A stretch of 32,407 bases of DNA from Phycisphaerae bacterium (GTDB lineage: Bacteria > Planctomycetota > Phycisphaerae > SM23-33): the NCBI GenBank assembly GCA_021108335.1, contig JAIORC010000407.1:1-32407 (forward strand), read 5' to 3'. Positions 85-27,788 of the stretch are shown here, one piece after another (the stretch's first letter is position 1; each line of letters opens with the position of its first letter). Below the pieces are notes generated by a model. That model was not told the origin of the DNA, searched no databases, and was given only the letters and a program-made list of their open reading frames with translations. The translations under genes were made by a program, and so were the position numbers.

Positions 85-108
85 GGGTGGCCCCCTGGGG
101 GAGGGATG
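85..108 (+). repeat. Core D element (GGGTGGCCCCCTGGGGGAGGGATG)
   Basis: Matches copies at 2716-2740 (reverse), 14142-14165 and 18282-18305. Confidence 0.75.
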
Positions 109-116
109 CGAAACAA

Positions 117-140
117 CATGCTTCTGCAAGCAGAAGCATG
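117..140. repeat. Core A palindrome CATGCTTCTGC-AA-GCAGAAGCATG
   Basis: 11-bp perfect arms; followed by GCACCCG. Confidence 0.9.
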
Positions 141-344
141 GCACCCGACATCGAGTGAAATAGATGGTGGGGTGCCGTGACGGGAGCGAAGCTTTCAGCC
201 ACGATGTCTGCTATTGCGTCAGTTTCGTAATATTTTGTGGCATGGGTTTGTAACCTGTGTTATAGACGCAGATTGAGAACATGTGTTACTCACGGATTCA
301 ACATCGACAGGGTGTGGGTTTGTACTTCAAACGCAAAGGAAGAC

Positions 345-1394
345 ATGATGAAAAAATTGGCGATTCTGGTAGTGGCGGTGGTGATGGTAGCCGGTGTGGA
401 AATGGCGTCGGGCGCAGCTCCGGGGTTTTTAAAATCCTATGCCAAAGCTCAGGCGCAGGCGAAAAAGGAAAACAAGCCCATCTATCTGCACTTTACCACT
501 AGTTGGTGCGGCTGGTGCAAGAAAATTGAAAACGACATCTACAAGAATCCCGCGGGCAAGAAGGCCCTGGTGGGTTTTGTCTGCGCGAGCCTGGATTGTA
601 CGACTCCTCGTGGCAAAGCCCCGACCGGCGAAGCTAAGATCAATATCGGTCTGATGAAAAAGTTTGGCGGAAGTGGGTATCCGTTTCTTGTAATAACGAC
701 GCCGGATGGGGTTTTGCTGGATAAATTCAGCGGGTACAGGCCCCTTGCCGAGTTCAAAAAAGTCCTCGCAAAGGCGGAAGCGAAGTTCAAAAAGTATCAG
801 GAATTCCAAGCCTACGCAGCCAAGGCGGATAAGAAAAGCCTGGAATACAACGTCAAGGCGTTGGAATTCTACAGTGAGATTGGTTCCTGGAGCAAGGCTG
901 CCCAGGCAGCGGCTGTCCTGAAGAAGCTTGACCCCAAGGGCGAGAAAGCCGATCCGGCCAAGGTTAATTTTGCTTTGTACGTACAGGCTGCCCAAGCCTC
1001 AAAAAAAGTCAGTCAAAAGAAAATGCGGGAACTTGAGCAGGCGGTAATCAAAGCCGACCCGGACAATAAAAAAGGTTACATGGAGAAGGTCTGTTGGGCC
1101 AAGGCTCTGATGTTGTTCCAAACCGCCCAACAAACCCGCAGCAAGCAGGGACAAAAAGTAATGCTCCAGCAGATAGCAGCGACGCTTACGGACCTCACGA
1201 AAAAGGCAAAGAAACTGAAATATGGCGAGAACGTTTATTCGCTGCTTGGTTTTGCCTACGCGAATCTCGATGAATTCGACAAAGCTACCGCCACATACGA
1301 GAAATTGCTGACAATGGTGCCCAAGGACAGCAAGCGAGCGAAGGACATCGCCAAGTCCCTGGAGAATCTGAAACAGGCAAAGGCGAAGCAATAG
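345..1394 (+). CDS. Secreted thioredoxin-fold protein (WCGWCKK motif) with C-terminal TPR-like region
   Basis: Start MMKKLAILVVAVVMVAG signal peptide (ATG at 345, inside the ORF listed from 237); HFTTSWCGWCKKIENDIY thioredoxin-like active site; helical repeats at C-terminus. Confidence 0.85.
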   Translation: MMKKLAILVVAVVMVAGVEMASGAAPGFLKSYAKAQAQAKKENKPIYLHFTTSWCGWCKKIENDIYKNPAGKKALVGFVCASLDCTTPRGKAPTGEAKINIGLMKKFGGSGYPFLVITTPDGVLLDKFSGYRPLAEFKKVLAKAEAKFKKYQEFQAYAAKADKKSLEYNVKALEFYSEIGSWSKAAQAAAVLKKLDPKGEKADPAKVNFALYVQAAQASKKVSQKKMRELEQAVIKADPDNKKGYMEKVCWAKALMLFQTAQQTRSKQGQKVMLQQIAATLTDLTKKAKKLKYGENVYSLLGFAYANLDEFDKATATYEKLLTMVPKDSKRAKDIAKSLENLKQAKAKQ

Positions 1395-1441
1395 CAGAAA
1401 AACAAAGCCGCCGAAAAGGACAAATCAAAGTAAGGCGATTT

Positions 1442-2686
1442 TCAGGTTGTGTAATCGGCGTTGATTGCTATGTATTCCCGGCTTAGGTCGCAGGTCAGGG
1501 CGGTGAATTTGCCTTGTCCGAGTCCGAGGTTGCAGTCGATTTTCACTGTATCGCCGGCCATCAGGCTTGACGCCTTTTTTGCGGAGAATTTGCACCCCAT
1601 ACCGCGTGCGAAAACCTTTACGAACTCATCTTCGGCGTTTTGCCTACGGCTGGGCGGTTGTCCGCCGATGCGTATGGTGAGTTTCTCCGCGACGACTTTG
1701 GCTGCCGATTTGCCCAGAGCCATCGCTATTCTGCCCCAGTTGGGGTCAGCGCCGTGGACGGCGGTTTTTACCAGCGGGCTGTTGGCCACGGACTTGGCGG
1801 CGACTTCCGCTTCGGCGTCGGTTCTCGCCCCGCGAACGATAACTTCCACCAGACGGGTAGCTCCTTCGCCGTCGGCGACGACCGATCGGGCCAATTCTCC
1901 GCAGACTTCGGCGAGGGCGGCTGCGAATTTGCGATAGGCTGCCGTGCCGGGTTGAATGGTCTTATTTCCTGCCAGGCCGCTCGCCAAGACGGCTACCACG
2001 TCGGAGGTGCTCTGGTCGCTGTCGACGGTTATCGCGTTGAACGTGCCGGCGACGGCCTGCCGTAGGGCCTTTCGCAGAACCGTCGGGGCGATTTTCGCAT
2101 CGGTGGTAATCACCGCGATCATTGTCGCCATCGACGGGGCGATCATGCCCGAACCCTTGACGATACCGCCCAGCCGTACCTCCCGGCTGGCTATGCGAGT
2201 CTGCACGAATGCGGACTTGGCCCGCAGGTCGGTGGTGAGGATTGCCTCTGCGACGTCGCCGTCGTTCCGCAGGCTGAGGGTTGCCCCGGCGGCTGCGATG
2301 CCTTTTTTGACTTTCGCCATCGGCAGGGGGTGTCCGATTATGCCCGTCGAGGCGACCAGCACTTCCTGGGCTTCGGCGTCGAGGATTTTCGCCGTCAGAC
2401 CAGCCATCGTCTCGGTGTCTTTAAGCCCAGTCTTGCCGGTGCAGACGTTGCTGTTGCCCGCGTTAATCACCATGCCGCGAACCTTCCCGCAGCCTCGCGG
2501 TAAAATGTGGCGAATCCATTGGATCGGCGCGCCGGTGATCTGGTTGGACGTGGTAACCACTGCTGCCGACACTTCAGCCCGGCCTGCGATAATAGCTAGA
2601 TCTTTCTTGCCCGAAGGTTTAATCCCGCAGGCGGTCGCACCGGCGACAAAACCCTTCGGCAACGTAATATGACGTACAAAACTCAT
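1442..2686 (-). CDS. argJ: Glutamate N-acetyltransferase / amino-acid acetyltransferase ArgJ
   Basis: Typical ArgJ motifs: FVAGATACGIKPSGKKDLA N-terminus, VKGSGMIAPSMATMIAVITTDA, autoproteolysis-type TVDSDQSTSD, HGADPNWGRIAMALG. Confidence 0.95.
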   Translation of the reverse strand: MSFVRHITLPKGFVAGATACGIKPSGKKDLAIIAGRAEVSAAVVTTSNQITGAPIQWIRHILPRGCGKVRGMVINAGNSNVCTGKTGLKDTETMAGLTAKILDAEAQEVLVASTGIIGHPLPMAKVKKGIAAAGATLSLRNDGDVAEAILTTDLRAKSAFVQTRIASREVRLGGIVKGSGMIAPSMATMIAVITTDAKIAPTVLRKALRQAVAGTFNAITVDSDQSTSDVVAVLASGLAGNKTIQPGTAAYRKFAAALAEVCGELARSVVADGEGATRLVEVIVRGARTDAEAEVAAKSVANSPLVKTAVHGADPNWGRIAMALGKSAAKVVAEKLTIRIGGQPPSRRQNAEDEFVKVFARGMGCKFSAKKASSLMAGDTVKIDCNLGLGQGKFTALTCDLSREYIAINADYTT

Positions 2687-2715
2687 TGCTGTTCCTCATT
2701 ATACTGTTTTCGCCA

Positions 2716-2740
2716 TTCATCCCCCAAGGGGCCACCCAAC
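2716..2740 (-). repeat. Core D element, reverse orientation
   Basis: TTCATCCCCCAAGGGGCCACCCAAC. Confidence 0.8.
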
Positions 2741-2783
2741 AATTACAATTTCTGCGCCATCCCTCATGGCGGGACGAAAAACA

Positions 2784-2813
2784 CATGGTCCCCAGGGGAC
2801 CATGCCACCCAAC
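2784..2813. repeat. Core F palindrome CATGGTCCCC-A-GGGGACCATG + CCACCCAAC
   Basis: Perfect 10-bp arms with the shared family edge. Confidence 0.85.
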
Positions 2814-2828
2814 AACTATATATTTGCC

Positions 2829-2938
2829 GTAGGGTGGGTGCTCCCACCCACGTGGTTTTCACACGATTCTCAATTCCGTTGTTTCTGCCTGGTTCGCCGC
2901 GTGGGTGAACCTGCCTTCGGCAGAACCACCCACCCTAC
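2829..2938. repeat. Core E compound inverted repeat (TAGGGTGGGT ... ACCCACCCTA)
   Basis: Outer inverted repeat enclosing GTGGGTGCTCCCACCCAC and GTGGGTGAACCTGCC-TTC-GGCAGAACCACCCAC. Confidence 0.8.
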
Positions 2939-2961
2939 ATGCCGTCCAGCGCGTTGTTTTT

Positions 2962-2989
2962 TAGTCATTAGACATTAGTCATTAGACAT
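2962..2989. repeat. 14-nt tandem duplication TAGTCATTAGACAT x2
   Basis: Two exact adjacent copies. Confidence 0.9.
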
Positions 2990-2990
2990 T

Positions 2991-3008
2991 GTGGGTGCTC
3001 CCACCCAC
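2991..3008. repeat. Core E palindrome GTGGGTGCTCCCACCCAC
   Basis: Identical to 2834-2851. Confidence 0.85.
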
Positions 3009-3015
3009 AGTTTTC

Positions 3016-4044
3016 CTAATACAATCCCATGTCTTCTTTGAGGCCGAACATGATGTTCATGTTCTGGATGGCTTGGGTGGACGCGCCCTTTAACAGGTTG
3101 TCAATGGCGGCGAATATCATCACCTTACCCTTGGCCAGCCGGGCGGTTACGTCGCAGAAATTCGTGTCGGCTACGTACTTCGTCGCCGGTATGACATCTG
3201 TCCGCACGCGGACGAACGGCTTGTCGGCGTAGGCAGCCTGCAGGGTCTCGATGAGTTTTTCTTCCGTCGCGCCGCCGGCGGGGTTGGCGTAGATGCTGCA
3301 CAACATGCCGCGATCCATCGGGCACAGGTGCGGCACGAACACCACGGCTGGTTCCTTGCCGCTGAGCGTCGCGAGCACCTGCTCCATTTCGGGCATGTGG
3401 CGATGGCTGGCGATTTTGTACGGCTCGAAGTTCTCGTTCCGTTCCGGGAAGTGTTGGGCCAGCGACGGCGAGCGGCCTGCCCCGGTAATCCCGCTTATCG
3501 CGTTGACGACGATGTCAGCCGGTTCGATCAGCCCGGCAGCCAGCAGCGGCGCGATCGCCAGAATCGCGCAAGTAGGGTAACAGCCGGGATTTGCCACGAG
3601 GTTCGCGCCGGCGATCTTGTCGGCGAAGAATTCCGGCAGGCCGTAGACTGCATCGGCCAGGCCGGCTGGGTCGGTGTGCGGGCAGTACCATTGCTCGTAC
3701 ACGGCGGCGTCGGCGAGCCGATAATCCGCGGACCAGTCGATAACACGCAGGCCGAGTGCTCGCAGGTCCGGCACGTAGCTCATGGCGACTTTGTGCGGTA
3801 CGCAGAGCATAGCCAGGTCGGCATTGCATTCGGCGACTGCCTGTGGGCTGTACGGCTGCTGGGTCAGGTTTGTCTGCCCGGACAGCATGGGGTGGATTTC
3901 GTCAATCGGGCCGATATTGCTCGAACCGAACAGCCCGACGACCTCGGCAGCCTCGTGCCGCTCCAGCCAACGCAAGGTCTCCAGACCCGTGTACCCGCTG
4001 CCGCCGATCAACACGATTCGAATTGGTTTTTCCGATGAATACAT
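3016..4044 (-). CDS. argC: N-acetyl-gamma-glutamyl-phosphate reductase ArgC
   Basis: IRIVLIGGSGYTGLETLRWLERH Rossmann motif; VANPGCYPTCAILAIAPLL active-site Cys; upstream of argJ on the same strand. Start taken at the internal ATG (MYSSEKP). Confidence 0.95.
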   Translation of the reverse strand: MYSSEKPIRIVLIGGSGYTGLETLRWLERHEAAEVVGLFGSSNIGPIDEIHPMLSGQTNLTQQPYSPQAVAECNADLAMLCVPHKVAMSYVPDLRALGLRVIDWSADYRLADAAVYEQWYCPHTDPAGLADAVYGLPEFFADKIAGANLVANPGCYPTCAILAIAPLLAAGLIEPADIVVNAISGITGAGRSPSLAQHFPERNENFEPYKIASHRHMPEMEQVLATLSGKEPAVVFVPHLCPMDRGMLCSIYANPAGGATEEKLIETLQAAYADKPFVRVRTDVIPATKYVADTNFCDVTARLAKGKVMIFAAIDNLLKGASTQAIQNMNIMFGLKEDMGLY

Positions 4045-4100
4045 AATGCCGCCCTCTTTACGATTACCCACTATTGTTCACTGTTCTCATGGCCGGGTGC

Positions 4101-4124
4101 CATGCTTCTGCTTGCAGAAGCATG
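4101..4124. repeat. Core A palindrome, centre TT
   Basis: CATGCTTCTGCTTGCAGAAGCATG, preceded by GGGTGC. Confidence 0.9.
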
Positions 4125-4141
4125 CCTGTTACGGACTCCAT

Positions 4142-4180
4142 CATGGCGACCCCTGCGGTGTCGCCATGCCACCCAACAAC
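4142..4180. repeat. Core B palindrome CATGGCGACCCCTGCGGTGTCGCCATG + CCACCCAAC edge
   Basis: 27-nt core (4142-4168) identical at 8451-8477 and 8636-8662. Confidence 0.9.
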
Positions 4181-4207
4181 TTTTTTTCGATTGTTGACAC
4201 AAAATCG

Positions 4208-4249
4208 AAAAATAAAAAAAGCCCCAGCACCTTTCTCGGGCACCGGGGC
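4208..4249 (-). terminator. Rho-independent terminator after rpsI
   Basis: On the minus strand: GCCCCGGTGCC-cgagaaa-GGTGCTGGGGC followed by TTTTTTTATTTTT. Confidence 0.8.
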
Positions 4250-4274
4250 GTTGGTGTTTGTTGATCCAGGTGGC

Positions 4275-4781
4275 TTAACGCTTGGAGAACTGGAAGCGTT
4301 TGCGTGCTCCGGGCTGGCCGGGTTTCTTCCGTTCTTTCATGCGTGCGTCGCGGGTCATCAGGCCTTTGTCTCTGAGTTCCTGATCGACTTCCGGCATGTG
4401 CTTGGACAGCGCCCTTGCCAGACCCAGCAAGACAGCCCCGGCCTGTCCGGTCGAACCACCGCCGCCGACGTTTACAAAAACGTCGTAGCTGGCCATCATG
4501 CCCAGCGTCTTCAGCGGCGAAATAACGGCTTCCTGATCGCGAAGCTGCGTGAAGTAGGCGTTGGCCTCTCGCTTGTTGACCAGGAATTTGCCCGTGCCCG
4601 GTTTGATGCGAACCCGCGCGACCGAGGCTTTGCGTCGGCCCGTGCCCCAGATGTAGTGCGTACCTTCGGGCAGTGGCGGTGCGGTGCGGGTGGCCTCCTT
4701 GGGGGCAGGCTTATCGCTTTTTACTTCGGCGACTACTACTTCGTCGGCGGTTTCCTGGTTATTTTCGTTTGCCTCTGTCAT
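4275..4781 (-). CDS. rpsI: 30S ribosomal protein S9
   Basis: YIWGTGRRKASVARVRIKPGTGKFLVN ... GLARALSKHMPE ... KERKKPGQPGARKRFQFSKR; acidic N-terminal extension. Confidence 0.97.
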   Translation of the reverse strand: MTEANENNQETADEVVVAEVKSDKPAPKEATRTAPPLPEGTHYIWGTGRRKASVARVRIKPGTGKFLVNKREANAYFTQLRDQEAVISPLKTLGMMASYDVFVNVGGGGSTGQAGAVLLGLARALSKHMPEVDQELRDKGLMTRDARMKERKKPGQPGARKRFQFSKR

Positions 4782-4829
4782 TCTCACTCTTCCTGATGAA
4801 ATTCCGAAAAATTCGTTAGCGTTCTGCTG

Positions 4830-5267
4830 TTACAGGCTCAGCGGTTCGGGCTGCTGTGCCTGGTGACTGTGTTCTGATCCGACGTAGACCTTCAATTTCT
4901 TGATCATGGCCCGGCCCAGCTTGGTTTTGGGCAGCATCCGCCGGACAGCCTCGGTAAGTACCCGCTCGGGGTGCTTTTCGAGCATCTTCGTAGCGGTAAT
5001 TTCCTTCTGGCCGGAAGGATAGCCGCTATAGCGGCGATAAATCCGCTGGTCGGATTTGTTTGCGCCGGTCATCACGATTTTCTCGGCATTGATTACGATA
5101 ACGAAATCGCCGGTGTCCACGTGTGGTGTGTACTCGGGGCGATGCTTGCCTTGGAGGATCACCGCCAGCTTGGTCGCCAGACGGCCTACTACCTGATCCG
5201 CGGCGTCTACCAGATGCCATTTGGCGTTCACTTCGCCCGTTTTTGCCATGTAAGTTTTTGTTGCCAT
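4830..5267 (-). CDS. rplM: 50S ribosomal protein L13
   Basis: KWHLVDAADQVVGRLATKLAVILQGKHRPEYTPHVDTGDFVIVINAEKI; canonical rplM-rpsI order. Confidence 0.97.
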   Translation of the reverse strand: MATKTYMAKTGEVNAKWHLVDAADQVVGRLATKLAVILQGKHRPEYTPHVDTGDFVIVINAEKIVMTGANKSDQRIYRRYSGYPSGQKEITATKMLEKHPERVLTEAVRRMLPKTKLGRAMIKKLKVYVGSEHSHQAQQPEPLSL

Positions 5268-5343
5268 CAGTTTTTCCAGTTAAATCCGTTCCAAAATTCT
5301 GTTTGCCTTGAACTCAGGCTGCTTAAGCTATAAAGAGCCACAC

Positions 5344-5372
5344 ATTATGGAGATGTCGACAAATCCTGTCAA
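5344..5372 (-). promoter_or_regulatory. Sigma70-type promoter for rplM-rpsI
   Basis: Minus strand: TTGACA - 17 nt (GGATTTGTCGACATCTC) - CATAAT, about 80 nt upstream of rplM. Confidence 0.65.
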
Positions 5373-5620
5373 GCCCATTTCGTCAATTTATGGATTTTTC
5401 TCAAAATGTTTTGCCAGGCCCGGCAGGCGGGGGCGTTAATCGGATTTTTCCCGTTTTGAAAAGTTATCCATTTTTCTGGATGTCTGCTTGACTTTTTCCG
5501 CGAACTGGCCAAACTTGGATATATAAGACAAAGGTGATTCCCGTTTTGGCAGATCAGCCTCGGCTGATCTCCAGGGGAACCCAAATATACCGGATATTTT
5601 TATCGCGAAGGAGTTTCGGA

Positions 5621-6598
5621 GTGAAACGTTCAATTCATATCTCGACGGTAGTGTTGCTGCTTTTTGGCGGCATGGTTTTTTTCTCCGGTTGCGGAGAAAA
5701 AAGAACCATCTCGATCAGCTACACCAGGCCGGCTGTTCAAAAAATTCCCGCTGACGTTCGCAAGATTGCCATAGTGCAGTTCGGCGCCAAGATAGGCACG
5801 GAGAAGAAGTGGGGCGAAATCGCCGCCGACGAACTTGCCTCGAAAATGAACGCCCTCAACGCCGAATTCCATCGCTATATCCTGTTTGATCGCAAACGGC
5901 TTGGCGTGTTGATGGACGAGCGGGACTTCCAGATGTCCATCACCGGCACGGATGAGGCTATCAAGCTTGGGAAAATCGCCAAAGTCGATGCCATGATCTA
6001 CGGAACTGTTACTGTTACCCATAAGGATTCCTTGAAAACGTACCAGAAATTCGATCCGATCGGGCGAACGATGGTATCGGCAACGCGCCTGTGGCGTACC
6101 GCCAGCGTTTCGGTCAATTTCACTATGGACGACATTCATACAACGCGGACACTTTCCAGCCGTAATATAACCCATGCGTTCGATTCCGAGAAAGACCGCG
6201 GCGGCTTCTCGATGTTCGGCGGGTCGGGCGGCAAGATCAAATCGACTGCCGTAATCTGCAACGAGTTGATCAACCGATGTGTTATGGAGTTCGTAGCCCG
6301 TATCAGCCCGCACTTTGTTACTTTCCGGGTACACCTGGAAAAAGGCAAGACCAAGGCGGTAAAGAATGGGAACAAGTATGCCTACGCCGGGGAATTCGCC
6401 GACGCCATAATGATGTACCGCAAAGGCCTGAACGAAAGGCCCGACGATTACGGGGCGATGTTCAACATGGGTGTGTGCTACGAGGCCCAGGCGAATCTGA
6501 AAGAAGCCCTGGAGTACTACAATCAGGCTCTGCAATACAAGACGGAAGACAAGTTCATAGTCGCTCGTCGCAGGGTACGATTGGAAGACCAGAAATAA
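5621..6598 (+). CDS. Lipoprotein with CsgG/LpoB-like domain and C-terminal TPR
   Basis: GTG start with GAAGGAG upstream; lipobox VFFSGC; VRKIAIVQFGAKIGTEKKWGEIAADELASKMNA...YILFDRKRLGVLMDERDFQ...KIAKVDAMIYGTVTVT is CsgG-like; YAYAGEFADAIMMYRKGLNERPDDYGAMFNMGVCYEAQANLKEALEYYNQAL is TPR. Confidence 0.8.
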   Translation: MKRSIHISTVVLLLFGGMVFFSGCGEKRTISISYTRPAVQKIPADVRKIAIVQFGAKIGTEKKWGEIAADELASKMNALNAEFHRYILFDRKRLGVLMDERDFQMSITGTDEAIKLGKIAKVDAMIYGTVTVTHKDSLKTYQKFDPIGRTMVSATRLWRTASVSVNFTMDDIHTTRTLSSRNITHAFDSEKDRGGFSMFGGSGGKIKSTAVICNELINRCVMEFVARISPHFVTFRVHLEKGKTKAVKNGNKYAYAGEFADAIMMYRKGLNERPDDYGAMFNMGVCYEAQANLKEALEYYNQALQYKTEDKFIVARRRVRLEDQK

Positions 6599-6709
6599 TC
6601 GGCTGTGTCAGCCGGGAAACCAGTTGCCGGGGCGGGGCTGGCATTGATTGCGAAAAACAGACCAGTCGGGTTTTGTATCGCCCGGCGAAACCAGAGTAAG
6701 GAGTCGCAA

Positions 6710-8089
6710 ATGAGTAAACACACGAAATTGCTGATTGTGCTGGTGAGTTTTGCAGTGGTCGGAGCCATGGCCGTGCCGGCGGTCGCCCAGGTGGCGAAGC
6801 CGAAAAATGCCGCCGAGGAGGCCAAACGCCTCGCGATGGGCGAGCGGGCTGCCCGTGCCGACGCCATCCGCAAACTTGGCGAGCGTATCCGCGGGCTGAG
6901 GATCACATCCTCGACTACCGTACAGGATTTCGTTGCCGAAAATGACACTATAGAGACAGACCTCAATGCGTTTCTTAAAGGTATGAAGCAGGAAGGCAAG
7001 TGCAAGGTAGACGAGGATGGCGTGGTTACCTGCAGGATGTCGGTTACGCTGAAGACGGTCGAGACGACGCTCAAGAGAATATACACCGCCCGCTACAAGG
7101 GCGACAAGGTCAAGATCAACGATTTCAACAAAATGACGCAGGTCAACAAGTTCAACAAGATTGAGGTTGTCGGCCAGGGCGTGCTGAAGTCTGAATCTGC
7201 CGCCGCCCCGATAGTGCCAGCAGCCGCAGGCCCGGCAGGCGTGCGGCGATCCACACTGCCGCCGTTCTGGAAGAAGCACATTCCTGCCGGGTTCCGCGCT
7301 CAGGCCAAGACGGGAGCCGAGCGTGCCGCCCGTGTCGATGCCATGCGGCGGCTGGCCGAGCGGATCAAGGGCGTGAGGATTACCTCTTCGACCACCGTGC
7401 AGGATTTCGTAACCGAATCTGACGAGATAAACGTTGATATGAGGCGGTTTCTGCGTGGCGCGAAGGAAATCGGCGTTCGTTACCGGCGGGACATACTGAT
7501 CTGCGAGGTCGAGATGCAGGTAACCCTCAAGACGGTCATTACCAATTTCAAGAGTTGGGTCGATACCCACTACAAGGGCGACCGCGTCAAGATCAAGCAG
7601 CTCCAGGAATACGTCCAGAAGGTTCGGTTCGACAAAATCAAGGAAATCGGTACGGGCGTGGTGAATCCCAAGTACGTTCAGCCGGCGATGGCCAAGAAGC
7701 AGGTGATTGTCGCGCAGGTTGCCTCGCAGCCGCCGGCATGGATTGTCGATACGCTGCGTGTAAAAGGCCGAGCTGCCGTGGACCCCAACGCAGCCAACCC
7801 CGCCCAGGCAAGGTTGGCGGCCTCTCGGGCCGCAGCCTTGGACGCCCGGCGTAAAATCGCCGAGAAACTCAATGGTTTGATGCTTTCCTCCAATTCTTCG
7901 GTGAAAAACTTCGCCGCACAAAGCGACAAAATCCAGGCCAGGATGCAGGCATTCCAGCAGAATGCCGCCGTTGTTGACGGCTCGGAGAAAATCGCCGACG
8001 GAGTTGTCACGGTAACCGTGGAAATGGACCTGAAACCCGTCTGGGACATGGTTGTATTCTATCGCCAGCAGGGTACCCCGCTGCCGTAA
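6710..8089 (+). CDS. Secreted protein with three tandem LPP20/FlgT-like modules
   Basis: MSKHTKLLIVLVSFAVVGAMAVPAVAQ signal peptide, GGAG upstream; three internal copies beginning GERAARADAIRKLGERIRGLRITSSTTVQDF / GAERAARVDAMRRLAERIKGVRITSSTTVQDF / ASRAAALDARRKIAEKLNGLMLSSNSSVKNF. Confidence 0.8.
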   Translation: MSKHTKLLIVLVSFAVVGAMAVPAVAQVAKPKNAAEEAKRLAMGERAARADAIRKLGERIRGLRITSSTTVQDFVAENDTIETDLNAFLKGMKQEGKCKVDEDGVVTCRMSVTLKTVETTLKRIYTARYKGDKVKINDFNKMTQVNKFNKIEVVGQGVLKSESAAAPIVPAAAGPAGVRRSTLPPFWKKHIPAGFRAQAKTGAERAARVDAMRRLAERIKGVRITSSTTVQDFVTESDEINVDMRRFLRGAKEIGVRYRRDILICEVEMQVTLKTVITNFKSWVDTHYKGDRVKIKQLQEYVQKVRFDKIKEIGTGVVNPKYVQPAMAKKQVIVAQVASQPPAWIVDTLRVKGRAAVDPNAANPAQARLAASRAAALDARRKIAEKLNGLMLSSNSSVKNFAAQSDKIQARMQAFQQNAAVVDGSEKIADGVVTVTVEMDLKPVWDMVVFYRQQGTPLP

Positions 8090-8135
8090 CGTCGCGGGGC
8101 CGTGAAATATCTGGAATAATAGATGGCAGGTGAAA

Positions 8136-8170
8136 ACAGGTTTGTAACCCCCTGGGGGTTTGTAACCTGT
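8136..8170. repeat. Core C/D composite ACAGGTTTGTAACCCCCTGGGGGTTTGTAACCTGT
   Basis: Duplicated GGTTTGTAACC around CCCCCTGGGGG. Confidence 0.8.
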
Positions 8171-8226
8171 GCTGCCGCTGTCTGAATTTGACAAACTACA
8201 CTGAAACCGTACGACAGGAGAAAAAC

Positions 8227-8379
8227 ATGTTTACAATCAAAAGAATCTTTTCGGTAGTGATGATCGTAGCCATGCTGGTTGTTACCGGTGTTGTGGTCGG
8301 TTGTGAAGAGGACGAAATAACAACCCACAAGTCCAAAACCACAACCACGAGCAAGACAAGCGAAGTAGTCGTTCCGTAA
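8227..8379 (+). CDS. Micro-lipoprotein (50 aa)
   Basis: AGGAG then ATG; MFTIKRIFSVVMIVAMLVVTGVVVGCEEDEITTHKSKTTTTSKTSEVVVP; signal peptide plus lipobox-like VVVGC and Thr/Ser/Lys-rich tail. Confidence 0.6.
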   Translation: MFTIKRIFSVVMIVAMLVVTGVVVGCEEDEITTHKSKTTTTSKTSEVVVP

Positions 8380-8413
8380 CAACCGTTGTGGGCGGCACAG
8401 ATTTGTCGGGTGC

Positions 8414-8437
8414 CATGCTTCTGCTCGCAGAAGCATG
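8414..8437. repeat. Core A palindrome, centre TC
   Basis: CATGCTTCTGCTCGCAGAAGCATG, preceded by GGGTGC. Confidence 0.9.
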
Positions 8438-8450
8438 TGTTCGGGTCCTT

Positions 8451-8477
8451 CATGGCGACCCCTGCGGTGTCGCCATG
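8451..8477. repeat. Core B palindrome
   Basis: Exact copy; followed by CCACCCG. Confidence 0.9.
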
Positions 8478-8508
8478 CCACCCGATTTGGCGGGAATTTT
8501 GTTTGGTG

Positions 8509-8545
8509 GCACAGGTTTGTAACCTCCTTGGGGGCAAGCCTGTGC
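8509..8545. repeat. Core C/D composite GCACAGGTTTGTAACC...CAAGCCTGTGC
   Basis: Inverted GCACAGG/CCTGTGC ends enclosing CCTCCTTGGGGG. Confidence 0.8.
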
Positions 8546-8567
8546 AATTTCCCACGATATCGGGTGG

Positions 8568-8602
8568 CATGGTTAGCCCGCATTTTTTGCGGGATAGCCA
8601 TG
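8568..8602. repeat. Core G palindrome CATGGTTAGCCCGCA-ttttt-TGCGGGATAGCCATG
   Basis: 15-nt arms with two mismatches; preceded by GGGTGG. Confidence 0.8.
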
Positions 8603-8635
8603 AAAGATAAATTTACAATTTTAGCGACATCCTTA

Positions 8636-8662
8636 CATGGCGACCCCTGCGGTGTCGCCATG
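8636..8662. repeat. Core B palindrome
   Basis: Exact copy; followed by TCACCCAAC. Confidence 0.9.
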
Positions 8663-8688
8663 TCACCCAACGCGTTTTTATTACCGCA

Positions 8689-8708
8689 TGCTTTTACAAG
8701 CAGAAGGG
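8689..8708. repeat. Degenerate core A
   Basis: CATGCTTTTACAAGCAGAAG. Confidence 0.5.
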
Positions 8709-10322: not shown

Positions 10323-10346
10323 CATGCTTCTGCAGGCAGAAACATG
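10323..10346. repeat. Core A palindrome, centre AG
   Basis: CATGCTTCTGCAGGCAGAAACATG followed by GCACCCG; one arm substitution. Confidence 0.85.
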
Positions 10347-10636
10347 GCACCCGACAATTTTTAGAGGTGTCCCTTTAGTTTTGGCAGGCCGGGTCTTGAC
10401 CCGGTAACGGCACTCTGTTCGGTTTGCCTGTTGATTTGTTTGCGTGCTTTCGCCTTCAATTCAGCTTCATCCGTCATGAATTCCGCAAATATTCTGATTC
10501 GCGGTTTCAATCCAACTTCCGCTGGAGGGAACTTTGCTTGAGTTGTGGGGGGGTTGCTGTTATTTTATTTCGACACATTGACGCTGGAGGCTGGTGATGG
10601 CGGTTGATTGACAATTGCAATACAGGAAAACAGAAG

Positions 10637-14141: not shown

Positions 14142-14165
14142 TGGGCGGCCCCCTGGGGGATGAAT
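14142..14165 (+). repeat. Core D element
   Basis: TGGGCGGCCCCCTGGGGGATGAAT. Confidence 0.8.
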
Positions 14166-14174: not shown

Positions 14175-14198
14175 CATGCTTCTGCAAGCAGAAGCATG
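14175..14198. repeat. Core A palindrome, centre AA
   Basis: CATGCTTCTGCAAGCAGAAGCATG followed by GCACCCG. Confidence 0.9.
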
Positions 14199-14227
14199 GC
14201 ACCCGGCAGAGTAGTTGTGAGTGAAAT

Positions 14228-18281: not shown

Positions 18282-18305
18282 AGGTGGCCCCTTGGGGGAT
18301 GAATC
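18282..18305 (+). repeat. Core D element
   Basis: AGGTGGCCCCTTGGGGGATGAATC. Confidence 0.8.
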
Positions 18306-19262: not shown

Positions 19263-19274
19263 GGGTTCTACCGT

Positions 19275-20846: not shown

Positions 20847-21116
20847 GCATATCTCCGTCGTTCCAACCCCGCGATTCCACCGACAAACCGGAAACAATCG
20901 CAGAGCAATAAAAGTATCGATAAAAGCAGGTCATGCAACTCGTCGCATGGCAAACCAGGTGTTACGATAAATTAAAACCTGTTATGCAACAAGCCGTATA
21001 ACCTACTGCTGCTTATAGTAACGAAACACGGCGGCGGAAACAAATACGCATGCCGAATTTTGCCCGAAATAGACGCAAAAATCGAAAATGATGAACACTG
21101 CCGGAAATTTCAGCCG

Positions 21117-21139
21117 AGCACAGGTTGCAAACCTGTGCT
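21117..21139. repeat. Core C palindrome (AGCACAGGTT-GCA-AACCTGTGCT)
   Basis: Perfect 10-bp arms. Confidence 0.8.
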
Positions 21140-21190
21140 ACCAATCTACAATAGGAGCAATAATTTGCCACAATTACTTGAGGAAGACAA

Positions 21191-21634
21191 ATGACATTAG
21201 CCGAAACCATCAAAGAACAAATCATGCAGGCGATGAAGCAGAAGCTGGAACTGGAAAAGAATATCCTGCGCGTCGCCCTGGGCGAAATCCAGCGAATCGA
21301 AACCCGCCAGGGGTCGATCACCGAAGCCGAGGCTCAGAAGGCCCTGCGAAAACTCATCGCCAGCAATAAGGAAACGATAGCGGCGGCCCCCGAGAAGGAT
21401 AATTCCGACCTCCTGCGGGAAAATCAGATAATCGAAGCGCTTCTGCCCCAACTGTGGGATCAGGCTAAGATCACGGAGTTTCTGTCCTCCGACGAGGATG
21501 CCCTGGCTGGTATTCGCTCGGCGGGCGGCGACGGCCAAGCTACCGGCGTGGCGATGAAATCTCTCAAAGCCGCCGGGGCTGCGGTCAACGGCAAAGACGT
21601 CGCAGCCGTTGTCGGCAACCTGCGAAACGGATAA
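21191..21634 (+). CDS. yqeY: GatB/YqeY domain protein
   Basis: TLAETIKEQIMQAMKQKLELEKNILRVALGEIQRIE...IEALLPQLWDQAKITEFL...GQATGVAMKSLKAAGAAVNGKDVAAVV. Confidence 0.85.
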   Translation: MTLAETIKEQIMQAMKQKLELEKNILRVALGEIQRIETRQGSITEAEAQKALRKLIASNKETIAAAPEKDNSDLLRENQIIEALLPQLWDQAKITEFLSSDEDALAGIRSAGGDGQATGVAMKSLKAAGAAVNGKDVAAVVGNLRNG

Positions 21635-21653
21635 CCCCAGAACATCCCCCACC

Positions 21654-22337
21654 ATGAGAACCATGAATCGTAACCGTCTGGCTAGCACATGGATACTGCT
21701 AAGCGTGGGGCAATTTGTCGTCATGACTGTCATTGCCATGGCGAATTATCCCGGCGGGCATCCGTTTGATCTGTCATCCGAAGGATACGACTTCTGGCAG
21801 AACACGCTATGCGACCTGGGCGAGACCGTTACGGAAAGCGGGCTGATAAATCCCGGAACGGCAAAGTGGTTCAACGCCTCGATGATCATTTTGATGCTCA
21901 GCTTCGTGCCGCTGTGGCTCATCCTGCCGCGTACATTTCCCAGCCGGCGGCGAATCGGCATGGTTGTCCGCATTGCCGGGATGCTGTCGCTTGCCGGCAT
22001 GCTGGGTGTCGGGCTTACCCCAGCCGACCGGTACGTGTTCCTGCACAGCCTGGCCATCGGGTGCGCCTCGATACCCGGGATTCCAGCCCTGCTGCTTGCG
22101 GTGATAGGTATGATTTCCGATGGGAAATGCCCCCGCGTCTATACAATCGGCAGCATCGTTTTTCTGGTAATCGCCATAATTCACTTCACCCAATACGTCC
22201 AGCATTTCTGGCTGGGATATCCATGGACGCCTATCGATCCGATCTGCCAGAAAATCGCCGTTACCATCGGCTTGTCGTGGATGGTCGCCACCGCGATTGT
22301 CGCGAGGCGGCAGGAACGGGAAGCGGATACTGATTAA
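21654..22337 (+). CDS. Multi-pass membrane protein, DUF998-like
   Basis: Multiple TM segments and FWQNTLCDLGETVTESGLINPGTAKWFNASMIIL; family call by resemblance only. Confidence 0.6.
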   Translation: MRTMNRNRLASTWILLSVGQFVVMTVIAMANYPGGHPFDLSSEGYDFWQNTLCDLGETVTESGLINPGTAKWFNASMIILMLSFVPLWLILPRTFPSRRRIGMVVRIAGMLSLAGMLGVGLTPADRYVFLHSLAIGCASIPGIPALLLAVIGMISDGKCPRVYTIGSIVFLVIAIIHFTQYVQHFWLGYPWTPIDPICQKIAVTIGLSWMVATAIVARRQEREADTD

Positions 22338-22365
22338 CATACGGCGTAACTTGTCGTGCGGGGTG

Positions 22366-23151
22366 TCAATCCCGGCCCATTTTAACGTAGCCGCTATATT
22401 TCGTATACGCTACAGTCGGAAACTTCAGCGTCTTCCTCTTTGACTCCTTCGCCTCGAGGGCCTCTATTTTGAACGATTTTTCGGCAACTTTCTCCGTTTG
22501 GTTCCAGAAACGAATATAGCCGCTGATACCCTCGGCAAGCCTATTGGTATTGTTGGTAACGGTAAACCGCACGCGTATGTATTTCGTTTTATTTTTAACA
22601 TTAATCCTGCCGATACTGACCGGTGCCAGGGATTGTATTTCCTTGCGTTGTTTTGGCGAAAGCAATTCCATGCACCTGGTATTCATCAATTGCAACTGGG
22701 ACAATTCCGCTTCCAGTATTTTGCACCGCTGTTTGTAGTCTTCTTCATTATGGGAATCGTTATCACGGGAATCGTCGGATTCCTTGTCGGTATCGGCATC
22801 ATCCGTGGCGGCAACTGTTGGCGCGACGCTGCCGGCTGACCGTGTTGCATCCGATTGCCGCTGGAGCAGTTTGTCGTTTGCCTTCTTGAATTCCATTATT
22901 TTGCCCATGACTTCTTTCACGTTGGCCTGCGATTTATCGTAATCGGTTTCCGCTTTTGCCAGTTTTGTCGCCATGGTGGATTTTGACTCAACCGCCCAGA
23001 GGGTTACAACTATCAGTATCGCACAGGCTACTCCCAGGATAACGGCTACTATGGTTAACATTAACGTGGTGTTTTGCCCGCGGTGCGTCATTTGATATCG
23101 GGACATGATCGGACGATTCTGGGCGTCATGTTGTTGCTGATTCATTTGCAT
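22366..23151 (-). CDS. Single-pass membrane protein with coiled coil and C-terminal beta domain (FxLYD-like)
   Basis: TLMLTIVAVILGVACAILIVVTLWAV TM; Asp/Glu-rich linker; SIGRINVKNKTKYIRVRFTVTNNTNRLAEGISGYIRFWNQTEKVAEKSF. Confidence 0.6.
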   Translation of the reverse strand: MQMNQQQHDAQNRPIMSRYQMTHRGQNTTLMLTIVAVILGVACAILIVVTLWAVESKSTMATKLAKAETDYDKSQANVKEVMGKIMEFKKANDKLLQRQSDATRSAGSVAPTVAATDDADTDKESDDSRDNDSHNEEDYKQRCKILEAELSQLQLMNTRCMELLSPKQRKEIQSLAPVSIGRINVKNKTKYIRVRFTVTNNTNRLAEGISGYIRFWNQTEKVAEKSFKIEALEAKESKRKTLKFPTVAYTKYSGYVKMGRD

Positions 23152-23326
23152 TATCCTTCCTTTTATTCAAAGAAAACTGCCTTCCGGCGTTCATGTATGC
23201 CATTATCGGCAATGCCTATCTGATTAGACAACCATCGCTTAAAAAAATTCACACAAATATCAATATTTTTCCCATGGCGGGGCGACACCGCAAAGGGTGG
23301 CTTTGTCCGATGGTTTACCGCCGCGG

Positions 23327-24481
23327 TTATTTCGCCTGGCAGCGTTTTTGCAGTTCGGCGAGGGCGGTCTCGAAATCGCTCGGCCAGGGTGCGGTAAGGT
23401 TCATCATCTCGCCGCTGCGTGGGTGGCGGAATTCGATTGTGTGGGCGTGGAGGGCCTGTCGCGTAATCAGCGGGCCTTCGGCGACTTCGGGGTGGCCGTC
23501 CAGTTGGCTGCGATACAAAGGCCCGCCGCCGTACATGCGGTCGCCGATAATGGGATGCCCCAGAAAACTCATGTGCACCCGCAACTGGTGTGTCCTGCCG
23601 GTCTTGGGAGACAATTCCACCAGCGTGAAAGACATCTCCGTGCCGGCAGGCCTGAGCCGCTGGACCACCTTGTATCGCGTTATCGCCGACTTGGTCTGGA
23701 TGGGATGCTCCCTGCCGGTCAGGCGGTGGACGGCATACTTCTCGCGGAACTTGGGATGCTTGCCGATGGGCATGTCTATTACGTCTTCTTCCAGGGCTAA
23801 TTGCCCGTGGACGATGGCGGTGTAGGTTTTCTGTATCTTGCGATGTTCGAACTGCTGGCCGAGCCGCCAGAGGGCAAGCTCGGTCTTGGCGACGAGGATA
23901 ATGCCCGTCGTGTCGCGATCCAGGCGGTGGACGATGCCCGGGCGGAATATCTCGCCGCTGGTGGGCAGCTCCTTGATGTCCCGCCAGTTCTTCTTGAAGT
24001 AGAACGCCAAGCCGTTGACCAGCGTACCCGTCCAATTGCCCCTCGCCGGATGGATAATAAGGTCGGCCTGCTTGTTGATAGCCATCATATCGTCATCCTC
24101 GTAGACGATATCCAGCGGAATGTCCTCCGGCGGAATTTCCCTGGGCTTGACTGTCGGCAGCATCATGTCGATGGCGTCGCCGTTGCGTATCGTGTAGCTG
24201 GGCTTGACGATTTTCGAATTGACGGTAACGTTGCCTTCCTTGATGTATCGCTGCAAGGCAGTGCGGCTGGTGCTTTTGCCCAGCCGACCGGCGAGATACT
24301 TATCCAGCCGCCGGTTGGGCCTGGCCCGGCGGATGTCTATCCGCAGATGCGCAAGGCCGTCTTCCTCGGCGGCGACGGACGTCTCCACCGCCTCCATGCC
24401 GTCCCGCGTCGTTTCCACCGGGCCGTCGTCGGGAAGGTCCAAGACCTCTTCTGCGTCGGGTTGTCTGTCTTCAGCATTCAT
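23327..24481 (-). CDS. RluD-family 23S rRNA pseudouridine synthase (S4 domain)
   Basis: S4-like RLDKYLAGRLGKSTSRTALQRYIKEGNVTVN; catalytic HRLDRDTTGIILVAKT; RTHQLRVHMSFLGHPIIGD. Start taken at MNAEDRQ. Confidence 0.92.
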   Translation of the reverse strand: MNAEDRQPDAEEVLDLPDDGPVETTRDGMEAVETSVAAEEDGLAHLRIDIRRARPNRRLDKYLAGRLGKSTSRTALQRYIKEGNVTVNSKIVKPSYTIRNGDAIDMMLPTVKPREIPPEDIPLDIVYEDDDMMAINKQADLIIHPARGNWTGTLVNGLAFYFKKNWRDIKELPTSGEIFRPGIVHRLDRDTTGIILVAKTELALWRLGQQFEHRKIQKTYTAIVHGQLALEEDVIDMPIGKHPKFREKYAVHRLTGREHPIQTKSAITRYKVVQRLRPAGTEMSFTLVELSPKTGRTHQLRVHMSFLGHPIIGDRMYGGGPLYRSQLDGHPEVAEGPLITRQALHAHTIEFRHPRSGEMMNLTAPWPSDFETALAELQKRCQAK

Positions 24482-24510
24482 CTTCCGGCAAAGGATACTC
24501 GAAACGCGGA

Positions 24511-24543
24511 TAAAAAACGAGCCGTCTGCATTTGCGGACGGCC
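24511..24543 (-). terminator. Rho-independent terminator after the GH130-type gene
   Basis: Minus strand: GCCGTCCGC-aaat-GCAGACGGC then TCGTTTTTTA. Confidence 0.8.
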
Positions 24544-24573
24544 CGTGCAATATCTGCTGAACAGAAAATCTTA

Positions 24574-25575
24574 TCAAGCGATGCTATTGGCCTTGATGAA
24601 GTCGATCAGTTCATCCACCTGCGTAAAGGCCATGCCGACGACAGTGTCCGCTCCGCCGTAGTAGATCGCGATGCGGCCGGTGGCGGCATCGGCGAGAGCG
24701 GCACACGGAAAGAGCACGTTCGGCACGTCGCCGACGCATTCGTATGTTTCTCGCGGATTGAGGATGTAAGGTTCGGTGCGGGCGATGACTTTCCACGGCT
24801 CGTCGATGTCCAGCAGGGCTGCGCCTGCGCTGTAATTGAAGCCGTTGCACGAAGTCAGCACGCCGTGGTAAATCAGCAACCAGCCGGCGGTGGTTTCGAT
24901 GGGAATCGGCCCGGCACCTATTTTGGTAGCCTGCCAGCCCTGGCCGCTCAACGCGCCCATCGCAAAACGATGTTTGCCCCAGTGGCACATATCCGGGCTT
25001 TCGCTGTAGAAAATATCTCCGAACGGCGTGTGGCCGTTGTCGCTGGGGCGGGACAGCATAGCGAATTTGCCGTTTATCTTCCGGGGAAACATCACGCCGT
25101 TACGGTTGAACGGCAGGAAAGCGTTTTCGAGTTGGTGGAACTCCTTGAAGTCCAGCGTCCAGGCGACGCCTATTGTCGGGAGGCCGCGATAGGCGTTACA
25201 CCAGGTGATGTAGTAACGGTCCTCGATCCAGCAGACGCGCGGGTCGTAGCCGCATATAAACTCCGCGATTTCCGGGTCGTCGCATATAAACTCGATAGGC
25301 TCGTTATCGAGACGCCAGTTTATGCCGTCTTCGCTTTGCCCGCAGTGAAGCTGCATGTGGCGGCGTTTGTCGTCTACGCGGAAGACGCCCACGAATTTGC
25401 CCTCGAAAGGAATCACCGCGCTATTGAAGATACTGTTGGCGCACGGGATCAGGTCACGTGGAATGACGGGATTGCCACTGTACCGCCAGGCTACTTCGTC
25501 GCAGCCGGCGGGTTTATCTTCCCACGGAATGTTCGTCAGGGCCGGGCCGATGATTGTTTGCTTGTCATTCGACAT
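24574..25575 (-). CDS. GH130-family glycosidase/phosphorylase
   Basis: [40 protein letters not shown]...GQSEDGINW...[16 protein letters not shown]...[25 protein letters not shown] (MSNDKQ) at 25575. Confidence 0.88.
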
Positions 25576-25859
25576 ATTGTATTCTCCATATGGATTAGAT
25601 CGCGATTTCCTTAGTCCCTCTCGCAGACAACTGCCGGTACAAAGCCGTGCCGTCGGAAAATGCCTGGAAAACAACGCACTGAATCCGGCCATCTTGCGCA
25701 TTGCGTCTGTTTGTGTCAAGTAATCGTCCCTGGGGGAAAGCGGTTTATCGCGCCATCCAGTTTCCGGTTCCCGTTTTTCCGGTTCCGGTAGCTTTTTCCG
25801 CCAATGGGGCGGAATCTTCACTTTTTTTGATTTATTGTCATTTCCCGGCAGAAACGCCA

Positions 25860-25887
25860 TTGACAATTTTGCGTGAAAACCTATACT
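25860..25887 (+). promoter_or_regulatory. Sigma70-type promoter upstream of tRNA-Asp
   Basis: TTGACA - 16 nt - TATACT, about 58 nt before the mature tRNA 5' end. Confidence 0.75.
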
Positions 25888-25945
25888 GTTCCTCTCGTTG
25901 GTTCCGGGCGGCTGCGGTTGCCCTGACAATCGAATATGAAAAATT

Positions 25946-26019
25946 GCGGCGGTAGCTCAATTGGTTAGAGCCCTGGACTGTCGATCCAGAGGTTGCGAGT
26001 TCGAGTCTCGTCCGCCGCG
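25946..26019 (+). tRNA. tRNA-Asp (anticodon GTC)
   Basis: Acceptor GCGGCGG/CCGCCGC, D-arm GCTC/GAGC, anticodon arm CTGGA-CTGTCGA-TCCAG (GTC), T-arm GCGAG-TTCGAGT-CTCGT, discriminator G; CCA not encoded. Confidence 0.96.
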
Positions 26020-26033
26020 TTTTACGACTGACC

Positions 26034-26066
26034 AAAGGCTGGTGATATATATCACCGGCCTTTTTT
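26034..26066 (+). terminator. Terminator after tRNA-Asp
   Basis: AAAGGCTGGTGAT-ATAT-ATCACCGGCCTTTTTT hairpin with U-tract. Confidence 0.85.
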
Positions 26067-26160
26067 CGTGCATCCGGGGCCTCCGAAACTCAACATTATT
26101 GTGTCCCAGTTACGCAGCCTGCTGCATAACGGGGGATTACGGGGAGATGTACCTGGGAAA

Positions 26161-26188
26161 TTGTTATGCAACGCAGCTCTCTTATAGT
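26161..26188 (+). promoter_or_regulatory. Candidate promoter of the two-gene accessory module
   Basis: TTGTTA - 16 nt - TATAGT upstream of the ATG at 26258; overlaps an inverted repeat (CTGCTGCATAAC ... GTTATGCAACGCAG). Confidence 0.5.
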
Positions 26189-26257
26189 ATAGTTTTAGGG
26201 ATGGTTGAAAGTTCGAAGGTAAAAATAACTCCTTGACCATAACGAACAGAGGTAAGA

Positions 26258-27160
26258 ATGGCGGCGAGCAGTAAATCCATCCGAGTTGATTTGTTTATGC
26301 TCGAATTTGAGCATAATCCAGCAAAGCAGACGATAGTCGAGATTTTTCAGGCAATCATACAATGCCCTATCGAAAACCGTGTTTATCGAGCCGGTGGCCT
26401 TGCTGACTATCCGTTTTGCATGTATGAGATACATGAGAACCAAGACCACATATGGGGAATGATAGGCAGAATCCGTAGCGACCTATTGGATCCCAAGGGG
26501 AATCTTCAAGGTGAACTAAAGCCGCTTGATTGGGCCGCTGACGAAGGCCAAGTCCAATTGAACCATTTTGTTTTTGACAAGAATAAGGTTGCATTAGCGT
26601 TTCCATATCAACAGGCAGGTATTCGCATAAGCCGTTTTTTGGGTTATCTGTCCCACTTTATCACACAGGACACAATCCTTAGTTCGAGACCAGTGTTACG
26701 GAAAGAGACGTTTAGTAAACTGCTCAGCCAGACCAAGCTGACCACAGAATTGGAGCTACGATACAAGATTCCTGCAAATAAAGAAACGCTCAGCCAAGCA
26801 GGTCTTAGTAACGACAAAATCATACGATTTGCCGGGGAGCATGGGGCTGCACGCCTTACTATAGTCCTCAAACCGGAGAAGCTATCTAAAGCGAAGTCCA
26901 GTCTGAGAGACGTGAAAGATATGGTGGAGTCGTACATTGGTCATGAGGACATTGTCAAGGGCCACCTCAAAGTATTCTATGGAGATGATAACCAACCACC
27001 TGACTTGATTAAACTGACCGATATGGCCGTTTTCGCCAGGAAGACAGTAGAGGTCAATTCCCAAACACGTATGCTTTCGGCTGCATTAGCATATCAGAAA
27101 CTGAAGGAAACGCTTCGTGAGCAGGCTGTTCAAATCGACGCTAACTCTGATTGGCGGTAA
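26258..27160 (+). CDS. Uncharacterised soluble protein (300 aa), first gene of a two-gene module
   Basis: AGAGGT before ATG; no signal peptide or TM; full-length ORF; composition differs from neighbours. Confidence 0.75.
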   Translation: MAASSKSIRVDLFMLEFEHNPAKQTIVEIFQAIIQCPIENRVYRAGGLADYPFCMYEIHENQDHIWGMIGRIRSDLLDPKGNLQGELKPLDWAADEGQVQLNHFVFDKNKVALAFPYQQAGIRISRFLGYLSHFITQDTILSSRPVLRKETFSKLLSQTKLTTELELRYKIPANKETLSQAGLSNDKIIRFAGEHGAARLTIVLKPEKLSKAKSSLRDVKDMVESYIGHEDIVKGHLKVFYGDDNQPPDLIKLTDMAVFARKTVEVNSQTRMLSAALAYQKLKETLREQAVQIDANSDWR

Positions 27161-27698
27161 GATTGGAGCCGATATATTACCGGATGATCCATGGAAGGTA
27201 ATCCGGAAGAAGTATGTTAACTGGGGGAGACGACATCCACATTGGCTTGCGGTACCTTCTGCTGGTGCCTATCTACTCCTCCCCAACAAATGTGTGCTGG
27301 CAATTTTGGCACCCAGCTTCCTCTCAAGTATCATCAGCGTGTCGTCGATATTAGCAGGTTTTCTGACCATGGGCATCTCCGTCTTGCTCGCATTGGGTGG
27401 AAAGAGAATCATGCGCTTACTTGATGAACTCAATTTAAGGAAAGAAGTCTACAGGAGCGTTTGGTGTGCTACGAAATGGATGCTGCTAATGGCCGCCTGC
27501 GCTATGATAGCATTGTTTGTGACGACAATCGAAACCCCAAAAAACCAGATGACCCCAGATTGCACTTGGTGGTGTCGGGCGTCTGCTTTTGTTGTGTTTT
27601 TCGTCGGAATGTGTTCATTGTTTCATGGTTGGACGGCACTCAAAAACATCACGGCTGTCGTGAATCGACACATTGAGATGGATGCGAAAGAGAATTAA
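27117..27698 (+). CDS. Multi-TM membrane protein (193 aa), second gene of a two-gene module
   Basis: GTG start at 27117 overlapping the upstream CDS by 44 nt; three to four hydrophobic segments (IISVSSILAGFLTMGISVLLAL, WMLLMAACAMIALFVTTI, ASAFVVFFVGMCSLFHGW). Confidence 0.7.
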   Translation: MSRLFKSTLTLIGGKIGADILPDDPWKVIRKKYVNWGRRHPHWLAVPSAGAYLLLPNKCVLAILAPSFLSSIISVSSILAGFLTMGISVLLALGGKRIMRLLDELNLRKEVYRSVWCATKWMLLMAACAMIALFVTTIETPKNQMTPDCTWWCRASAFVVFFVGMCSLFHGWTALKNITAVVNRHIEMDAKEN

Positions 27699-27735
27699 TA
27701 AGGCGAGCGGTTGCCATGATGAAATTCGTAACGAA

Positions 27736-27759
27736 CATGCTTCTGCGAGCAGAAGCATG
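27736..27759. repeat. Core A palindrome, centre GA
   Basis: CATGCTTCTGCGAGCAGAAGCATG followed by GCACCC. Confidence 0.9.
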
Positions 27760-27788
27760 GCACCCATCATTTGATTTGTTATAATGTA

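Follow-up and report, generated by a model that had tools for sequence, protein, structure and literature searches.

Headed palindromes of a Phycisphaerae bacterium as probable REP elements of RAYT transposases, one lineage of which is nested in essential genes

Some genomes are documented to hold several REP classes, with a GT[A/G]G head in common and different stems (PMC2817692, PMC3733652). In such genomes each class has its own RAYT (PMC2817692, PMC6006769). Experiments on TnpA_REP of E. coli showed that the tetranucleotide and the lower stem matter and that the sequence of the upper stem can be swapped (PMC8266576). REPs have been described in frame inside tnpA_REP genes (PMC6006769), and palindromic elements lying in frame in Rickettsia genes are cited in PMC3733652. 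A sequence-only reading of the DNA described here had considered different cores within one frame to be unlike a REP family. The documented multi-class genomes and the swappable upper stem speak against that view.

The window is a stretch of 32,407 bp that makes up a whole contig (C15) of a Phycisphaerae bacterium (GCA_021108335.1). The genome is 3.78 Mb in 409 contigs. The assembly is 91% complete, breaks at repeats and may lack RAYT genes. Genome statistics were taken from a sample of 830 kb, or 22% of the assembly. The seven inverted-repeat cores reported earlier (A to G) were all recovered, at or near the places where they had been seen. A unit of a further core, K (170 to 206), and a degenerate copy of core A (10323 to 10352) had been missed. 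The units of the window are listed in Table 1. A search of the window against Rfam gave only a tRNA and no match for the palindromes. Two other repeats were seen in the window. At 30362 to 30545 GAC and GAT codons follow one another in a long run, giving a low-complexity sequence rich in Asp that lies within or runs across a coding region. Two 106-nt copies, 75% alike and 477 nt apart, lie at 6841 to 7423 within an ORF on the plus strand (6605 to 8089) and are probably a duplicated protein domain.

Table 1. Palindromic units in the window, with core class and head.
Position	Strand	Core	Head	Remarks
85-101	+	REP core D	GGGTGGC	heads-out pair with the A unit at 117-146
117-146	-	REP core A	GGGTGCC	head on minus strand
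170-206	+	REP core K	GGGTGCC	class of the hairpins that flank the RAYT on contig C13
2721-2737	-	REP core D	GGGTGGC	
2784-2810	-	REP core F	GGGTGGC	tail GTGTTTTTCG
2834-2851	+	core E palindrome	GTAGG	different head type, before the palindrome
2901-2933	-	longer core E-type palindrome	GTAGG	CCTAC after it on the plus strand, a GTAGG head on the minus strand
2991-3008	.	core E palindrome		without clear head
4095-4124	+	REP core A		heads-out pair (REPIN) with the B unit at 4142-4174
4142-4174	-	REP core B	GGGTGGC	
8135-8176	-	core C long palindrome		D-like apical part
8408-8437	+	REP core A		heads-out pair with the B unit at 8451-8483
8451-8483	-	REP core B	GGGTGGC	
8505-8545	+	REP core C	GGTGGC	CCTTGGGGG apical module
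8562-8602	+	REP core G	GGGTGGC	
8636-8668	-	REP core B	GGGTGAC	degenerate head
8686-8706	.	degenerate core A		headless
10323-10352	-	REP core A	GGGTGCC	one stem mismatch
14143-14159	+	REP core D	GGGCGGC	degenerate head; faces the A unit at 14175-14204
14175-14204	-	REP core A	GGGTGCC	
18282-18298	+	REP core D	AGGTGGC	degenerate head
21118-21138	-	REP core C short form		GGTA before it on the minus strand
27736-27765	-	REP core A	GGGTGCC	adjoins the remnant of a B-like half (27706-27730)

The edge motif was tested for association with hairpins in the 830 kb, using 40 anagrams of the motif and the wrong side of the motif itself as controls. A hairpin followed GGGTG[G/C]C in 170 of 408 cases (41.7%), compared to 297 of 8,181 for the anagrams (3.6%). 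On the wrong side the rate was 3.7%, which is the control level. The edges thus lie beside palindromes far beyond chance, as the sequence-only reading had proposed. Its shared outer motif holds in this respect but needs correction in two others: the motif is one-sided, and cores C, E and J differ. The edge is a 5' head on one strand, and the GSCACCC ends are the heads of second units in opposite orientation. As in REP elements, a conserved unpaired tag stands at one end only of a short palindrome. Cores A and K carry the head GGGTGCC; in B, D, F, G, H and L it is GGGTGGC. In core C it is shorter (GGTGGC), core J has GTAGGCCGGGTC and core E another head, so the edge is not common to all cores. 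The tag tetranucleotide is GTGG in B, C, D, F, G, H and L, GTAG in J, and GTGC in A and K. Head-like words were also seen at L063 (10984 to 13450), where tandem repeats (GGGTGCCGACGTAAACGCC) read as LLDKGADVNAK-like units. This is an ankyrin-repeat-like gene and the words are not REPs.

Most perfect hairpins in the 830 kb with a stem of at least 9 belonged to a few families (A 38, C 34, B 31, H 22 and F 18, with others). Classes beyond those of the window were H (CATGGCTTGC), L (CATGGTCAGC), J (GTAGGCCGGGTC..) and a C-headed variant of D. Core K (CGTGGCGGGAAGCGAAGC..GCCACG) belongs to the GGGTGS group (S = G or C), which has at least eight core classes in the genome; there are ten or so core classes altogether. 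The sample held 266 headed units, which extrapolates to about 1,200 per genome. By a long-ORF mask, which is crude and contains spurious ORFs, 51% of the unit midpoints fell outside long ORFs compared to 15% of the DNA. Among neighbours within 160 nt, 49 pairs were heads-out, 25 heads-in and 65 tandem, and many units were single. High copy number, mainly intergenic placement and opposite-orientation pairs or clusters are all as in REPs, BIMEs and REPINs. Core A had 162 exact copies in the genome and its reversed-pattern control had none. The 39 relatives held zero to two copies each (two in G013, one in G027), giving counts of 162, 2, 1 and 0 across the genomes tested.

Parts of units were found in different combinations. 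Pairs containing A have a common spacer, TTGTTACGGACTCCATC, with either B or D as the second half. Cores F and H differ in their stems and agree in head and tail (GTGTTTTTCG), and a hybrid of H and F exists (GGGTGGCATGGCTTGCTTGGGGACCATG). The module CCCTTGGGGCARGCC is found in core C as well as in D and F hairpins, there in the loop, and each of these cores also occurs without it. Both the modularity suggested earlier and an exchange of cores or of pair partners are supported by the mixed A/B and A/D pairs, the F/H hybrid and the shared loop module. Template switching between units at shared CCCC/GGGG tracts could have exchanged halves and placed one hairpin in the loop of another. A module CCCTTGGGGCAGGCC was noted inserted in the loops of D and F hairpins at L025 (3510), L028 (1085), L047 (18442) and L051 (2759 and 3096). 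It resembles the apical part of long core C hairpins. The GTGC head variant, the exchange of pair partners and the hairpins inserted in hairpin loops are new here.

The earlier reading had also supposed a common activity associated with the edge. A search for one found Y1/RAYT transposases. RAYT-A is a protein of 193 aa encoded on contig C207 between core A hairpins with heads outward; one GGGTGCC-A unit lies upstream and two inverted A units lie downstream. Three other RAYTs lie between hairpins of their own core, on C213 (core C), C170 (core J) and C13 (core K). The same repeat is thus inverted around a RAYT gene for cores A, C, J and K, as is found for REPs. RAYTs A, K and J scored above the NCBIfam cut-off for the REP-associated tyrosine transposase (REP_Tyr_transpos, NF047646). 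By sequence the closest solved structure was E. coli TnpA_REP (4er8, E 4e-6). In the 91%-complete assembly, none of the RAYTs found lay between hairpins of core B, D, F, G, H or L. Two RAYT-A-clade genes are present in the assembly and both have GTGC heads; the six cores left without a RAYT have GTGG. Both observations weigh against the RAYT/REP reading.

A search for RAYT-A homologues covered 248 genomes of the class, and the flanks were read at 71 loci. The proteins have the Y1 HUH domain, the W and the catalytic Tyr followed by xxxNP of RAYT/TnpA_REP proteins. H69xH71, W126 and Y148 were present in 71 of 71 and N152 in 69 of 71. RAYT-A has the pattern EHVH..WQ..YIHxNP, and a stretch WQRGGG[YH]DRN is conserved in the clade. 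Outward GGGTGSC heads stood on both sides of the gene at 50 of 71 loci and on at least one side at 64, compared to 10 and 25 for heads in the wrong orientation. Strict headed hairpins were found at 48 loci, with 46 distinct cores. At 38 loci, strict hairpins stand on either side of the gene and share a core. Core identity was 0.91 between the flanks of one locus and 0.48 between loci. The cores of G013, G203 and G213 had 33, 53 and 2 copies in their own genomes, respectively, and none in nine others. Core abundance is thus linked to the cognate RAYT, as in REP systems. The G213 core occurs only beside its RAYT, so a RAYT does not always give many copies. Taken together, these loci show a head that is kept across the RAYT clade and a core that is tied to the individual RAYT. 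A constant head with a variable core is a rule of the RAYT clade. It agrees with the tolerance of E. coli TnpA_REP for changes in the upper stem (PMC8266576).

Roughly half of the RAYT-A-clade loci have the tag GTGC; tags in the literature are GT[A/G]G. Placed on the RAYT tree, the head base S required 11 changes compared to 20.2 in shuffles, so S tends to be inherited with the RAYT. Covariation of S with RAYT residues was best at column 141, which is acidic with GTGC and often Thr with GTGG. As this column was picked from about 190 and has only four independent pairs on supported branches, it is not claimed here. It is a suggestive, not yet statistically secure, candidate for a GTGG/GTGC specificity determinant. 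A sub-clade of seven loci (L125, L133, L137, L139, L140, L141 and L142) had flanking hairpins of the form CCACTGCTCT..AGAGCAGTGG. Its heads were GTGTGCC or GGTGCC in place of GGGTGSC.

From these sequences the palindromes are very probably REP elements with RAYT transposases, that is, non-autonomous hairpins with a one-sided 5' guide. The guide GGGTGS adjoins a stem that usually starts with a C-G pair, in units that are often clustered or arranged heads-out as REPINs or BIMEs. By analogy with E. coli TnpA_REP, the RAYT may bind the folded single strand at its head and lower stem, and it would then move or copy the unit. Under such a mechanism the distal stem would be little constrained, so cores could diverge.

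One transposase could also move many cores in trans, with the head alone as substrate, so that B, F, G, H and L would be moved by RAYT-A or RAYT-K. The disproportion between two RAYT-A-clade genes and at least eight GGGTGS core classes fits such sharing. So do the common spacer of the mixed A/B and A/D pairs and the F/H hybrids. We regard it as possible but on balance unlikely. The flanks share a core at 38 loci that have a strict hairpin on each side, the cores tested follow their RAYT, and the inheritance of S along the RAYT tree suggests dedicated RAYTs. The shortage of RAYT genes may itself come from an assembly that breaks at repeats, or from loss of the genes.

Two readings do without RAYT mobility. 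Hairpins kept for their RNA structure, as transcription terminators or mRNA-stability elements with the edges as part of the signal, would account for the strong stems and for the GTGTTTTT that follows F and H units. An F unit (2783 to 2805) and one A unit were indeed among the terminator-like sites in a scan of the window. Most window units were not terminator-like, however, and the reading was rejected. Conservation falls on the unpaired head at one side and not on a T tract, RAYT genes lie between inverted copies, and copy number is linked to the RAYT. Terminator function as the basis of the family is very improbable, and secondary use of some units as terminators is possible. The heads-out pairs resemble terminal inverted repeats around a core, as in a MITE-like element with ends GGGTGGC...GCCACCC, a DDE transposase and the cores as cargo. 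This is extremely improbable. Single units, which are many, are headed on one side only, and the genes flanked by the repeats encode HUH/Y1 transposases. Two-sided terminal inverted repeats were rejected on the wrong-side head rate of 3.7%, which is background. The RAYT/REP reading is retained. A RAYT clade that conserves the edge, with a core that diverges for each RAYT/REP pair, accounts for cores that can be swapped inside constant edges. The roughly seventy loci, which combine one head with 46 cores, are a ready panel for how a RAYT reads its guide.

The more surprising part is the nesting of RAYTs in the sole copies of essential tRNA synthetase genes. On C213 the core C RAYT lacks a stop codon and continues in frame into leucyl-tRNA synthetase (LeuRS), in an open frame of 968 aa that is seen directly. 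C226 carries the N-terminal part of LeuRS, and the frame there enters the same core C repeat array after GAEVDF. C226 covers positions 1 to 233 of the leuS profile (L149, 1 to 1104, minus strand) and C213 covers 230 to 843 (L067, 3001 to 5904, minus strand). These are the only leuS in the genome, and the two contigs presumably join here. The core C REPs and the RAYT lie in frame in the region of the LeuRS editing domain, and the reading frame stays open from the REP array across the RAYT until LeuRS ends. The border REPs are translated as GGTGLQPV and HRLQTCAT. A Pfam scan of one nested frame gave only LeuRS domains and Y1_Tnp, with no protein-splicing (intein) domain. The insert therefore probably stays in the protein as an extra domain.

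Homologues of the core C RAYT were sought in 298 genomes and 56 loci were read. HxH, W and the catalytic Tyr were present in all 56. Frames longer than 350 aa held 73 of 87 homologues, compared to 7 of 133 in the RAYT-A clade. At least 80 aa continued in frame on both sides at 41 of the 56 loci. By sequence reading the hosts were LeuRS, ValRS, IleRS, PurH and RdgB, in many genera of the class (L151 to L205). GcvP, RarA and others are less certain hosts. A few RAYTs of this lineage extend a ThiE-like protein at its C terminus, and some stand alone. An insert-free homologous gene at the same place was found in the set for 18 loci, giving an insert of about 200 to 430 aa. The nested copy was the only leuS over the cut-off in seven further genomes and likewise the only valS in seven genomes. 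No stop codons occurred in the matched parts of these nested leuS and valS genes. In G024 leuS is spread over two contigs; of the valS genes, two resume past a frame break or on a different contig. One genome with a nested sole synthetase gene, G263, is a single contig.

Inteins and similar elements are in-frame residents of conserved essential genes, from which only precise loss is tolerated. The nested arrangement described here is seen in the sequences themselves. We think it likely that this RAYT lineage has an intein-like life without splicing, with transposase and REPs in frame in loops of essential enzymes (the LeuRS editing domain, ValRS, IleRS, PurH and RdgB). The host could lose the insert only by precise deletion, and the transposase would be made within the host enzyme. 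The selfish advantage and the expression as one protein are inferred. In the papers searched, no transposase in frame in tRNA synthetase genes and no whole RAYT in frame in essential enzymes was found.

Compared to known systems, the headed units are most like the REP/BIME/REPIN elements of Pseudomonas and Stenotrophomonas and their RAYTs (PMC2817692, PMC3116915, PMC3733652). Both are short hairpins tagged at the 5' side only, occur in many copies and in pairs and clusters, and have a RAYT between inverted units, genome-specific cores and a copy number linked to the RAYT. The present elements differ in their extended GGGTGS head, with GTGC at about half of the loci against GT[A/G]G, and in having ten or so core classes in one genome, mixed-core pairs and hairpins in loops. 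E. coli TnpA_REP (RAYT group 2, subclass 2.2; PDB 4er8) shares the HUH motif, the W and the catalytic Tyr, sequence similarity and a guide by the hairpin foot. The REP stems of RAYT-A, however, are perfect and lack the bulge seen in E. coli, and GGGTGC serves as the guide. The patterns EHVH..WQ..YIHxNP and WQRGGG[YH]DRN of RAYT-A also set it apart. The nested RAYTs resemble inteins in lying in frame in essential genes and differ in having no splicing domain in the one frame scanned. With the Rickettsia palindromic elements and the REPs in tnpA_REP genes they share palindromic repeats kept in frame in coding genes. The core C lineage differs from these in that a whole transposase with its flanking REPs is carried, in essential enzymes and in many genera.
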